64,000 nt of DNA from Pseudooceanicola nanhaiensis DSM 18065 (GTDB lineage Bacteria > Pseudomonadota > Alphaproteobacteria > Rhodobacterales > Rhodobacteraceae), in NCBI RefSeq assembly GCF_000688295.1, contig NZ_JHZF01000013.1, positions 496,001 to 560,000 of the forward strand, in the 5' to 3' direction. The notes under the pieces were generated by a model. The model did no database searches, was not told the DNA's origin, and saw nothing but the letters and a program-made list of their open reading frames with translations. Each line of letters starts with the position of its first letter. Position 1 is the stretch's first letter. The position numbers and the translations under genes were made by a program. Positions 56,306 through 59,869 of this stretch are shown here, one piece after another.

Positions 56306-56811
56306 GCGAGAACCGCGCCGTTCTGGCAGGCGGCTGCTTCTGGGGCATGCAGGACCTGATCCGCAAGCTGCCCGGGGTGAAATCCACGCGCGTCGGCTAT
56401 ACCGGCGGCGACGTGAAGAACGCCACATACCGCAACCACGGGACACATGCCGAGGGGATCGAGATCATCTACGACCCCGAGACGATCTCGTACCGCAGGC
56501 TGCTGGAGTTCTTCTTCCAGATCCACGACCCGACCACGGTCAACCGGCAGGGCAACGACATCGGCATGTCCTACCGCTCGGCCATCTACTACGTGGACGA
56601 GGACCAGCGGCAGGTCGCGCTCGACACGATCGCCGACGTGAACGCCTCCGGCATCTGGCCGGGGCCGGTGGTGACCGAGGTGGAGCCTGTCGGCGATTTC
56701 TGGGAGGCAGAGCCGGAGCACCAGGATTACCTCGAGCGGATCCCGAACGGCTATACCTGCCACTTCCCGCGTCCCGACTGGGTGCTGCCGCGTCGTAACG
56801 CCGCGGAGTGA
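56302..56811 (+). CDS. msrA: Peptide-methionine (S)-S-oxide reductase MsrA
   Basis: Reduces methionine S-sulfoxide. The 169-residue protein has the catalytic Cys in [12 protein letters not shown] near 12, the [15 protein letters not shown] region and [19 protein letters not shown]. The C-terminal resolving cysteine is absent after NGYTCHF, so reduction may use the Cys in that motif or thioredoxin directly. It is the second gene of an msrB-msrA operon; the terminator follows at 56872. Confidence 0.95.
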
Positions 56812-56871
56812 TCCCGAAAACCCGGGCCGGCGTTGCGCGCCGGCACGTATCGCGCCGGAATATCGACCTCG

Positions 56872-56898
56872 GGGGCCGGAATCTGCGTCCGGCCCCTT
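56872..56898 (+). terminator. Probable terminator of msrBA
   Basis: A perfect 9-bp stem GGGGCCGGA/TCCGGCCCC with a 7-nt loop, followed by TT only. It is 61 bp after the msrA stop. The stem is strong, the U-run weak. Confidence 0.5.
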
Positions 56899-56954
56899 GC
56901 CGTGACCGGGGCCCTCGGGGAATGTGCGCCTGTGACGGGCAACGGAGGCGCATC

Positions 56955-58565
56955 ATGACGCGAGAGAACGCGGGACCAGCCGGAAGGGTGCGCGCGCTGC
57001 TGGCGGCGCTGCTGATCGTGCCGGGCGGCACGGCGCTGGCACAGGACGCCTCCTCGGCCATCGAGCTGCAGCCGAGCGAGTACGAGAATTTCATCACCGC
57101 GAACACGATGTGGCCCGGGGTGGCGCGTTTCGCGCTCGGCTTCCACCAGACGAACCCGTCGATCGAAACGCCCGGCACCTCGAACCAGGTCTATTTCGTC
57201 GATGTCGCCTTCTCGCCCTTCCAGGGGCTCGAGATCGGGGCCGACATCCAGACCTTCGTCGACCCGCCGCCCTTCCCGATCGCGGGCACGACCCCGCCGA
57301 TCGAGATGACGGGCGCCGGCGTCCATGCCAAGTACCGGTTCTACGACGACGGCGCGCTCTCGGTCGCGGCACAGGTCTCTGCCGAATGGATGCGCTTCGC
57401 CTCGACCATCTACGGCAGCACCTCGACCGAGTACCTGTTCATCGGCTCGGCGCATCTGCCGCTGTCCTACAACATCACGCCCAGGCTCCAGGCGCATCTG
57501 ACGCCCGGCATCTCGGTCTATCCCGACAGCCGCGAGGGCAATCCCTTCTACGGCACCGTCGCCAGCATCGGCGCGGGCCTGTCCTGGAAGCCCACCCCGC
57601 GCACGCTGGTCTACGGCACCGTGACCCAGCCGCTGACCGGGGCCAACACCATCCTGTCCGACGGCAGCTACGCGCGGCGTCCCGTCCTGACGCTCGGCGG
57701 GCGCTACGCGGTCGCGCCGAACACGGCGGTCGATCTCTATGCAACGAACGGCATCGGCGCGACGCCGGCGACGGGCGTGCTGAACTTCATGCCGAATGGC
57801 GACATCGTCCTGCTCGGCGCGCGGCTCGTGCACACCTTCGGCCCCGGCGCGCTGCAGAAGCGGCCCTACGGGCGTGCGCCGGGCCAGATGCGGACGCCGC
57901 GGCAACGCATCCTCGCCGGGGACGGCTTCACGCTGCCCGGCGCCCGCACCCGCGACCGCGGCACGGTCGAGCTGAACGGGTTCTACGGCATGCAGGACGC
58001 CCATGGCGCGTTCTTCGCCATGGCGATCGACCACAATGTCGAACTGCGGATGAGCTACGAGAGCATCGCCGACGACGGCTCCGGCGCGTCGTCGAAACTG
58101 ACCAGCGCCGAGGATCGCTGGACCGGGCGCTTCAAGCTCCAGTTCCTCGACCAGATGGACGGCTGGCCGGTCTCGCTCGCGGCGATCACCTCGCTCGGGC
58201 GCGATCTGGACGACAACGGCGCGTTCTACGTCGCGATGCCGGTCATGCGCGAGGTGACGGACAAGCTGGCGCTGCGCGTGGTGCCCGAGGCCGTGTTCTA
58301 CGGCAGCAACGAGGAGTTCGGCCTCGGCCTGGGGGCCAGCTACGCGGTCGGGCGCTACACCAACGTCTTCGGCGAATACACGGTGCGTGACAGCGGCGAC
58401 GGCATCTGGGCCGTCGGCGCCAAGGCCCGACTGGGCCGCGCCCCGTTCGAGGCCGGGCTCTACGCCACCAACGCCATCGGCGCCTTCGGGGTGAACGCGA
58501 TGACGGCGCAGGAGGACCCCCGAGTCGTGTTCTCCCTGTCCTACATCGACAAGCTGTTCCGGTGA
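56955..58565 (+). CDS. Predicted outer-membrane beta-barrel protein
   Basis: A 536-residue exported protein with no name that I recognise. There is a signal peptide (LLAALLIVPGGTALA-Q). The mature chain is built of alternating amphipathic strands with aromatic girdle residues, for example FALGFHQTNPSIE, VDVAFSPFQGLEIGADIQTF, HLPLSYNITPRLQAHLTPG and VYGTVTQPLTGANTI. The C-terminal part repeats barrel-like strands (YAVGRYTNVFGEYTVRDSG, ARLGRAPFEAGLYATNAIG) and ends YIDKLFR, which lacks the classic terminal aromatic. Function is unknown; a porin-like or YjbH-type exopolysaccharide barrel is possible. Confidence 0.65.
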   Translation: MTRENAGPAGRVRALLAALLIVPGGTALAQDASSAIELQPSEYENFITANTMWPGVARFALGFHQTNPSIETPGTSNQVYFVDVAFSPFQGLEIGADIQTFVDPPPFPIAGTTPPIEMTGAGVHAKYRFYDDGALSVAAQVSAEWMRFASTIYGSTSTEYLFIGSAHLPLSYNITPRLQAHLTPGISVYPDSREGNPFYGTVASIGAGLSWKPTPRTLVYGTVTQPLTGANTILSDGSYARRPVLTLGGRYAVAPNTAVDLYATNGIGATPATGVLNFMPNGDIVLLGARLVHTFGPGALQKRPYGRAPGQMRTPRQRILAGDGFTLPGARTRDRGTVELNGFYGMQDAHGAFFAMAIDHNVELRMSYESIADDGSGASSKLTSAEDRWTGRFKLQFLDQMDGWPVSLAAITSLGRDLDDNGAFYVAMPVMREVTDKLALRVVPEAVFYGSNEEFGLGLGASYAVGRYTNVFGEYTVRDSGDGIWAVGAKARLGRAPFEAGLYATNAIGAFGVNAMTAQEDPRVVFSLSYIDKLFR

Positions 58566-58702
58566 GTCGGCGGATCGCGGCGGCGTTCGCGCCCTGCGTT
58601 TGACGTGGCCTTCCCTTGCGTCCTATGCGTGCGAAATCACCGCAGATCACGAAAAGTTTTGCTTCGTAGTCAAGGCTCCGATAGCCGACCATTCGGTCAA
58701 GA

Positions 58703-58731
58703 TTGACCAAAGTGTTAAAAATGTGTTAAAA
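58703..58731 (+). promoter_or_regulatory. Possible promoter with embedded CtrA box
   Basis: TTGACC (58703-58708) and TTAAAA (58726-58731) are spaced by 17 bp. The CtrA box TTAA-AAATGTG-TTAA (58715-58729) lies over the spacer and -10 region. Such overlap is typical of CtrA-repressed promoters, while activated ones usually place the box near -35. Confidence 0.45.
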
Positions 58732-58819
58732 GAAAGATGGCTCCGGACATAATTCGGCGCGACGTGGACCCAAAACGTTTCTTTCTATCACATCGGCCGA
58801 TCCTTCCTGAGGATCGGCC
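58732..58819 (+). ncRNA. Candidate small RNA, about 85-90 nt
   Basis: A transcript from the promoter at 58703 would end at a perfect 9-bp hairpin GGCCGATCC/GGATCGGCC (58795-58819) followed by TATTCGTTT. No ORF is contained. No homology is known to me; the call rests on promoter, box and terminator arrangement only. Confidence 0.35.
58795..58819 (+). terminator. Hairpin terminator of the candidate small RNA
   Basis: A 9-bp perfect stem with a TTCCTGA loop, followed by the moderately T-rich TATTCGTTTCC. It is 230 bp after the outer-membrane protein stop and 130 bp before the transporter gene, too far to be an ordinary terminator for the former. Confidence 0.6.
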
Positions 58820-58951
58820 TATTCGTTTCCGCGGCCCGGCCCGCGGACGGTGCGAAACTGCATCCCTTCACGGCAGGGGCGCGGCACCCGATTGACCTTT
58901 CCCTGCCGGGCGGTCAGCATCGCGCCGACTTTCCCACGACCCGGACCGAAG

Positions 58952-59869
58952 ATGTACCCGCTGCGCGGAATTACCCTGAAGCTCGCGGCGGTGATGTGCT
59001 TCATCGTCATGATTTCCCTGATCAAGGCCGCCGACGTCCCCTCGGGCGAGGCGGTGTTCTTCCGCTCCTTCTTCGCAATCCCGGTGATCCTGGTCTGGGT
59101 GATGATCCGCGGGGACCTCGGCCAGGCGCTGAAGGTGCGCTCGGTCACCGCCCACGCCCTCAGGGGCGCGCTCGGGACATTGGCGATGCTCACCAACTTC
59201 GCCGCGATCGTGCTCCTCCCGCTGCCCGAGGCCACGGCGCTCGGCTATGCCATGCCGCTCCTCGTCGTGGTCTTCGCGGCGATGTTCCTGCACGAGAAGG
59301 TCGGCCTCTTCCGCTTCGGGGCCGTGGGGCTCGGCCTTTTCGGCGTGCTCGTGGTGATGGAGCCCTCGATCACCATGGGCGCGGCGGACGCGGTCGAGAC
59401 GGCGCAGCTGCTCGGCGTGGCGCTGGCGCTCTTCGGGGCGACCTGTGGCGCGCTTGCGCAGGTCCACATCCGCAACATGGTGCAGGTCGAGCAGACCTCG
59501 GCCATCGTCTTCTTCTTCTCGCTGACGGCCTCGGTCCTGGCGCTTCTGACGCTGCCCTTCGGATGGGACATGCCGCAGGGGATGCAATGGGTCTACCTGA
59601 TCTCCTGCGGGCTGCTCGGCGGGCTGGGGCAGATCTTCCTGACCTCGTCCTACCGTTTCGCCGATGCCTCGCTGGTGGCGCCCTTCGATTACGCCTCGAT
59701 GATCTTCGCCGTGCTGATCGGGTATTTCTGGTTCGACGAGGTGCCGGGCGTGCAGACCCTGATCGGGGCGGCCATTGTCATCGCGGCCGGGATCGTCATC
59801 ATCCTGCGCGAACGCTACCTCGGCCTGCAGCGCGGCAAGGCGCGCCAGGCGAAGAACCCGTTCGGCTGA
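58952..59869 (+). CDS. DMT-superfamily transporter (EamA-type)
   Basis: A 305-residue inner-membrane permease with ten hydrophobic helices in two EamA repeats. Typical segments include AAVMCFIVMISLIKAADVPS, FRSFFAIPVILVWVMIRG, LPEATALGYAMPLLVVVFAA and SLVAPFDYASMIFAVLIGYF. Such drug/metabolite exporters move amino acids, nucleotides or other small metabolites; the substrate is not deducible. I chose ATG 58952. It converges with petR; repeat copy E lies between the stops. Confidence 0.9.
   Translation: MYPLRGITLKLAAVMCFIVMISLIKAADVPSGEAVFFRSFFAIPVILVWVMIRGDLGQALKVRSVTAHALRGALGTLAMLTNFAAIVLLPLPEATALGYAMPLLVVVFAAMFLHEKVGLFRFGAVGLGLFGVLVVMEPSITMGAADAVETAQLLGVALALFGATCGALAQVHIRNMVQVEQTSAIVFFFSLTASVLALLTLPFGWDMPQGMQWVYLISCGLLGGLGQIFLTSSYRFADASLVAPFDYASMIFAVLIGYFWFDEVPGVQTLIGAAIVIAAGIVIILRERYLGLQRGKARQAKNPFG

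Follow-up and report, generated by a model that had tools for sequence, protein, structure and literature searches.

A CtrA-type box and a terminator-like hairpin in a probably lineage-specific intergenic gap of Pseudooceanicola nanhaiensis

Introduction

In Caulobacter, activation is associated with full binding boxes of the regulator CtrA that lie near position -35, and one at -14 is interpreted as repressing (PMC4287350). A second report places the end of the box 23–24 nucleotides (nt) upstream of the start in CtrA promoters of R. sphaeroides, which also have A at -11 and G at -4 (PMC6180460), and a third reports CtrA sites ahead of cckA and divL in Dinoroseobacter shibae (PMC4046655). Here we analyse a stretch of 64 000 nt from Pseudooceanicola nanhaiensis DSM 18065 (referred to as the window; G000:C13:496001-560000, from a genome of 4.66 Mb in 20 contigs) and, within it, a gap between two genes that holds a CtrA-type box, several promoter-like hexamers and a terminator-like hairpin, an arrangement that an earlier note had read as a small RNA (sRNA) controlled by CtrA. 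Two features are central:

58715–58729, strandless: perfect TTAA-N7-TTAA box, the CtrA full-site consensus
58795–58819, + strand: hairpin resembling an intrinsic terminator, stem of 9–11 bp, tail TATTCGTTTC

The reading that we favour, and to which we give an even chance, is that the gap is an ordinary, lineage-specific, AT-rich intergenic spacer closed by an intrinsic terminator and lying ahead of a transporter gene of the EamA family with its own promoter. An ordinary gap with a transcription stop signal is the most likely explanation because no relative was found to share the promoter letters, the box or the hairpin. RNA arriving from upstream would fold at 58795–58819 and polymerase would stop there, leaving EamA to be transcribed chiefly from a start of its own near 58927. 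For the CtrA-box match and the promoter-like hexamers of the AT-rich dip, shared selection is not apparent, and they do not have to give rise to a dedicated sRNA. What we infer in this reading is that transcription terminates at the hairpin, where EamA starts, and that the locus has no dedicated sRNA gene.

Results

Conservation of the interval

Conservation, which the earlier note had named as a check on its proposal and whose lack it would have taken as a refutation, was not found: neither the box nor the hairpin is kept in the relatives searched (21 other genomes of the genus, and the loci matching either flank). More specifically, a 141-base query over the candidate (58690–58830) gave only matches of 16–30 bases in nine of these 21 genomes, at E 0.158 or worse, which is chance level. 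The positive control was a query of the same length over the gene of the sRNA SorX, present in this genome at G000:C13:728176-728248 (L134 277-349, - strand; RF02784, 67.4 bits for a cut-off of 46.6), with a second SorX-related match at G000:C11:1465741-1465789 (E 2.1e-9). This control found relatives in all 21 genomes, with E no higher than 5.5e-4, though among the weaker matches some cover the core only (the weakest, in G008, spans 24 bases), and the method is therefore able to see a conserved sRNA of this size at genus distances, while a fast-changing one could be missed. The searches for the candidate compared DNA sequence.

Wider searches gave little more. A 391-base query against 99 other relatives, with at most six candidates scored per genome, returned one match of 42 bases (G021), which lies over the EamA promoter region (58893–58934) and off the candidate. 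In the family (394 genomes including its own, drawn evenly from a larger group, with at most two candidates scored per genome), the candidate had only five matches of 24–27 bases in four other genomes, at E 0.003–0.01. The match in G307 is a TTAA-N7-TTAA box in its own right, flanked by two other genes. G341 has two matches, which fall on box letters within AT-rich sequence that contains no perfect box, and the matches in G048 and G188 fall mid-segment and include neither box nor hairpin. The G307 box (GTGTTAAAAATCTGTTAAAA, at 1501–1525 of locus L086) lies between two converging genes, which we take to be lpxB- and mnmA-like. Plasmid and phage records held no match to the candidate; among viral contigs, 20 letters over the box recur in four, without further similarity by eye, and the hairpin in none.

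The flanks were followed separately. They consist of two co-directional genes:

56808–58565, + strand: upstream neighbour, open frame of 585 codons with its stop at 58565
58952–59869, + strand: downstream neighbour, EamA-family transporter (Pfam EamA, 4.8e-24)

The gene-free gap of 386 bases between them (58566–58951), as described in the earlier note, holds provided that the EamA gene begins at ATG 58952. The GC content, 69% over the window, is 43–44% in two 100-base windows between 58650 and 58799.

On the downstream side, 20 of the 21 other genomes of the genus have an EamA homologue (76% identity in the closest genome), and among named genomes EamA was met at seven loci, the closest being Pseudooceanicola, with 74 and 72% identity. 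The 500 bases upstream of EamA at the 20 genus loci contain no perfect box, and the candidate hairpin is not present there; lax hairpins of different sequence occur at four of them (L035, L039, L041 and L042), and the longest word common to the candidate and the 600 bases upstream of the relatives' EamA has nine letters. What does recur is TTGAC, found within 120 bases upstream of EamA in 10 of the 20 relatives, 53–90 bases before the matched start (60 here). In the window it belongs to a promoter-like TTGACC at 58892–58897, and the pair TTGACC-17-CAGCAT (58892–58920) scores 6.9 with a simple sigma-70 score. Because of this recurrence, the sequence suggests that EamA has its own promoter, located after the hairpin.

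On the upstream side, the gene is patchy in the family: of the 394 genomes searched, 15 besides this one have a homologue (16 loci, 27–40% identity), and a scan of named genomes for it confirmed no relative. Its protein matched no Pfam or NCBIfam family (tested over 56955–58562) and appears beta-barrel-like, judged by eye from the letters. Within the 700 bases after the 16 homologues, 15 loci have no perfect box, and none of the 16 has one within 558 bases; the sole box, in L082, stands 559 bases past a homologue of 27% identity. A hairpin of at least 8 pairs whose tail has 4 T or more follows one of the 16 (L074, 597 bases on, of other sequence), and these stretches have at most 12 letters in common with the candidate.

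The hairpin

The hairpin proposed in the earlier note, GGCCGATCC-TTCCTGA-GGATCGGCC, is present at 58795–58819, with 9 perfect pairs, 64 to 88 bases past the TTAAAA hexamer discussed below; a hairpin scan offers an alternative of 11 pairs with a 3-base loop. Its end, said to be T-rich, is so in part: the tail TATTCGTTTC has 6 T in 10, with a longest T run of only 3. The fold of 58785–58830 is predicted at -20.5 kcal/mol, with a z-score of -5.89 against shuffles. Terminator-like sites under a lax rule are at chance level, with one found and 1.0 expected per 1.5 kb, and the hairpin is among 7 distinct + strand hairpins of the window that have a stem of at least 7 pairs and at least 5 T in a 10-base tail.

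Several features are consistent with the favoured reading of a spacer closed by a terminator: the hairpin is strong, is T-richer on the + strand side than on the other, and stands between two + strand genes. A number of points weigh against it. At 230 bases beyond the upstream stop codon, the hairpin is far away for a terminator belonging to that gene, and no better hairpin was found nearer to the gene (58563–58640 does not fold better than shuffled sequence, z 0.04; 58640–58735, z -1.57). The T tail is a poor one for a terminator, and the box is perfect and rare. Moreover, with the closest other genome only 76% identical in EamA, a fast-evolving sRNA could have been missed.

The distance from the stop codon also bears on an alternative that we regard as unlikely, in which the hairpin would close a long 3' untranslated region (3' UTR) of the upstream gene, perhaps trimmed to an sRNA, and the box would be irrelevant. 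The genes are co-directional and the interval from 58565 to 58795 lacks another good hairpin, as this alternative would have it, and an sRNA derived from a 3' UTR, UdsC, is described for R. sphaeroides (PMC9779115). The 230 bases are nevertheless long for such a region, and no such element follows the 16 homologues of the upstream gene.

The CtrA-type box

The perfect TTAA-N7-TTAA box of the earlier note is borne out by the letters (TTAAAAATGTGTTAA at 58715–58729). It is the sole one in the window, and 100 shuffles of the window gave none; of 2000 shuffles restricted to the AT-rich surroundings (58590–58830), 5 contained a perfect box. The whole genome has 12 perfect boxes for 3 matches of a reversed-pattern control. 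Taken alone, this count would indicate strong enrichment, a notion left unsupported by the 21 other genomes of the genus, in which 259 perfect boxes stand against 281 reversed-pattern controls (hand-summed), that is, no enrichment. With the two patterns about equally frequent across the genus, a perfect box alone is no proof of a CtrA site.

CtrA itself is encoded in the genome (NF045991, 430.7 bits for a cut-off of 350), the only box ahead of its gene being one with a single mismatch, 66 bases upstream of the matched start. A response-regulator gene behind another box (L090) was considered as ctrA and rejected: its best NCBIfam models are PmrA/QseB, and the CtrA model gives 130.6 of the 350 bits. 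One perfect box (L093) is found about 30 bp upstream of the gene for a CckA-like kinase (the protein is partial; CckA models rank best in NCBIfam, at 154 bits for a cut-off of 1000) and another about 50 bp upstream of a PAS-domain gene located after regB. Because these two boxes precede such genes, by analogy with the sites ahead of cckA and divL in D. shibae, some perfect boxes of this genome are probably in use. Of two box-linked genes, one labelled DivL-like showed only PAS domains, and one labelled an MCP only Cache and HAMP domains (partial proteins in both cases).

The letters 12–14 bases after the candidate box are CTC on the + strand, with no A, and ATC on the - strand. Among the eight other boxes judged by eye to be near a gene start, six have an A at these positions on the gene side (L090, L095, L096, L097, L098 and L101), a proportion that chance could give, and two have none (L092 and L093, the latter before the CckA-like gene). 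Note that boxes L091, L094 and L100 of this genome have no clear close gene start in a rough frame scan and may mark further unannotated starts.

Promoter-like hexamers

Three hexamers may serve as promoter elements around the box:

58703–58708, + strand: TTGACC, candidate -35 of the promoter proposed in the earlier note, right arm of the dyad GGTCAA-GA-TTGACC (58695–58708)
58726–58731, + strand: TTAAAA, -10 of that promoter or alternative -35, matching TATAAT at 3 of 6 positions and lacking the A at position 2
58748–58753, + strand: CATAAT, better-scoring candidate -10 from a promoter scan, with a predicted start at about 58759–58761

The letters of the proposed promoter (TTGACC, a 17-bp spacer and TTAAAA) are as described; its strength does not stand out, the pair scoring 5.4, inside the range of shuffles. 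The promoter scan picked TTAAAA-16-CATAAT (58726–58753) instead. With a simple scheme built on sigma-70 frequencies, this pair scores 8.5 and a third one, TTGACC-18-TAAAAG, 8.3; the best score per shuffle has a median of 6.6 and a 95% point of 9.1 (300 shuffles), so that no pair is outstanding. The promoter is the weakest part of the candidate. The dyad GGTCAA-GA-TTGACC at 58695–58708 that holds the candidate -35 overlaps a second inverted repeat, GACC-N4-GGTC (58687–58698), and may be an operator.

The role that CtrA could play depends on which start is considered. The promoter of the earlier note predicts a start at 58738–58739, which puts the box at -23 to -9, covering the -10 in a repressor-like position; both pairs that begin with TTGACC have the box over their -10, with scores (8.3 and 5.4) in the shuffle range. 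The start predicted from CATAAT puts it at about -45 to -31, an activator-like position that is about 6–8 bp further off than in R. sphaeroides CtrA promoters. The activation layout of that species (box end 23–24 nt before the start, A at -11) is unmatched here: the best -10 lies later, and the start itself is a predicted one. Altogether, the box geometry as read from the sequence seems to fit neither the R. sphaeroides activation spacing nor clear repression.

A hypothetical short RNA

The proposal of the earlier note would, in the form that we consider possible though doubtful, be a lineage-specific short RNA made from a promoter touched by CtrA and ending at the hairpin:

58760–58825, + strand: hypothetical short RNA of 66 nt (about 88 nt if made from about 58738), linker CGUUUCUUUCUAUCACAUC followed by the terminal hairpin

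Transcribed from CATAAT, such an RNA would measure about 66 nt, and from the -10 of the earlier note about 88 nt. It would act on mRNAs through its single-stranded U/C-rich linker; with a start at about 58760 it would be activated by CtrA, and with one at about 58738 repressed. The region 58760–58825 folds with a z-score of -4.29, mostly owed to the hairpin, which itself folds far better than shuffles. The perfect full site in a genome that encodes CtrA, and the presence of CATAAT at a 16-bp spacing from a TTAAAA overlapping the box, are consistent with this proposal, and the 230 bases between the upstream stop and the hairpin are the main argument for a separate transcript. In Caulobacter, moreover, promoters with a CtrA motif include those of six non-coding RNAs (PMC4287350). 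The candidate is nevertheless not conserved in the 21 other genomes of the genus, with only short fragments in the 393 other genomes of the family. Its box ends about 30–32 nt before the CATAAT start, as opposed to the 23–24 nt stated for R. sphaeroides. It also lacks an A 12–14 bases after the box on the + strand, unlike six of the eight gene-linked boxes above, many of which chance would give. Of the CtrA-controlled sRNA, then, the encoded regulator, the perfect full site, the box before the CckA-like gene and a hairpin that could end an RNA stand; the conservation does not.

A bolder version, for which we see only a slim chance, would combine both starts: a recent, species-specific sRNA with a CtrA switch, in which one box blocks the start at about 58738 and supports that at about 58760, so that two overlapping transcripts (about 88 and 66 nt) would appear at different levels of CtrA. 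The analogy is with the Caulobacter ctrA gene, where one full box has been proposed to serve two starts in this way (PMC4287350).

The statement that the segment between promoter and hairpin holds no open reading frame is not quite accurate: an ATG frame of 52 codons, 58737–58895, spans it. The ATG nearly coincides with the start predicted at 58738–58739, which would permit a leaderless small protein whose frame runs through the hairpin. We hold this to be very improbable, as the frame matches no Pfam or NCBIfam family, has no DNA relative and crosses the terminator-like hairpin.

Similarity to known RNA families

At the Rfam gathering threshold, the window has no match. Below it, the candidate aligns over the full length (1–77) of the mmgR/suhB family RF00519, with 19.7 bits and E 0.088 for a 401-base stretch, which could make it a degenerate member. 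We give this the least credence of all the readings, and membership was rejected: the gathering score is 41, the best RF00519 match of the genome (23.2 bits) is SorX, and the CCUCCCU core of the family consensus is absent from the candidate. The RF00519 search covered 60 genomes, its own included, and 17 of its hits were read. By eye, sub-threshold hits of relatives (L019, L028, L032 and L033; L017, L018, L022 and L031) share ACCUCCCUGUUGGACUU, a hairpin and a run of at least 6 T; judged by their resemblance to the SorX gene of this genome, they look SorX/SorY-type and not mmgR.

Discussion

Direct observation covers the letters and the fold predicted from them, the failure to find relatives among the genomes searched and the presence of a ctrA gene. 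A motif and a hairpin in one genome, without relatives, do not identify an sRNA, and the SorX control from the same genome illustrates how easily a conserved sRNA of this size is detected. Were the short RNA real, its timing by CtrA would show how fast the CtrA network recruits RNA outputs in marine rhodobacterals.

Comparison with known systems

Like the CtrA-dependent flagellar promoters of R. sphaeroides, the locus belongs to a rhodobacteral genome and has a CtrA box ahead of a start, here a predicted one; the box ends 23–24 nt before the start there (PMC6180460), whereas the starts of the candidate would be about 30–32 nt (better-scoring promoter) or about 9 nt (promoter of the earlier note) away. 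Another likeness is to CcnA of Caulobacter crescentus, for which a box at -23 is stated, the position at which the candidate box would begin under the promoter of the earlier note (PMC8959179). CcnA is 182 nt long, lies in the replication origin and has been shown to be transcribed, whereas the candidate is predicted from sequence and conservation was not found.

Like the candidate, SorX is a short intergenic RNA with a 3' terminator hairpin; it differs in its CCUCCCUG core, its tail of 8 T in this genome and its relatives in 21 of 21 other genus genomes, none of which the candidate has. For R. capsulatus, which we take to belong to the same order as this bacterium, Grull et al. (2017, RNA Biology) reportedly carried out, to go by their title, a genome-wide identification of sRNAs affected by the loss of CtrA, and the candidate shares with these its proposed regulator. 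CtrA-linked sRNAs are already known in Caulobacter and, by that title, in R. capsulatus, and even a confirmed RNA at this locus would join a known class.
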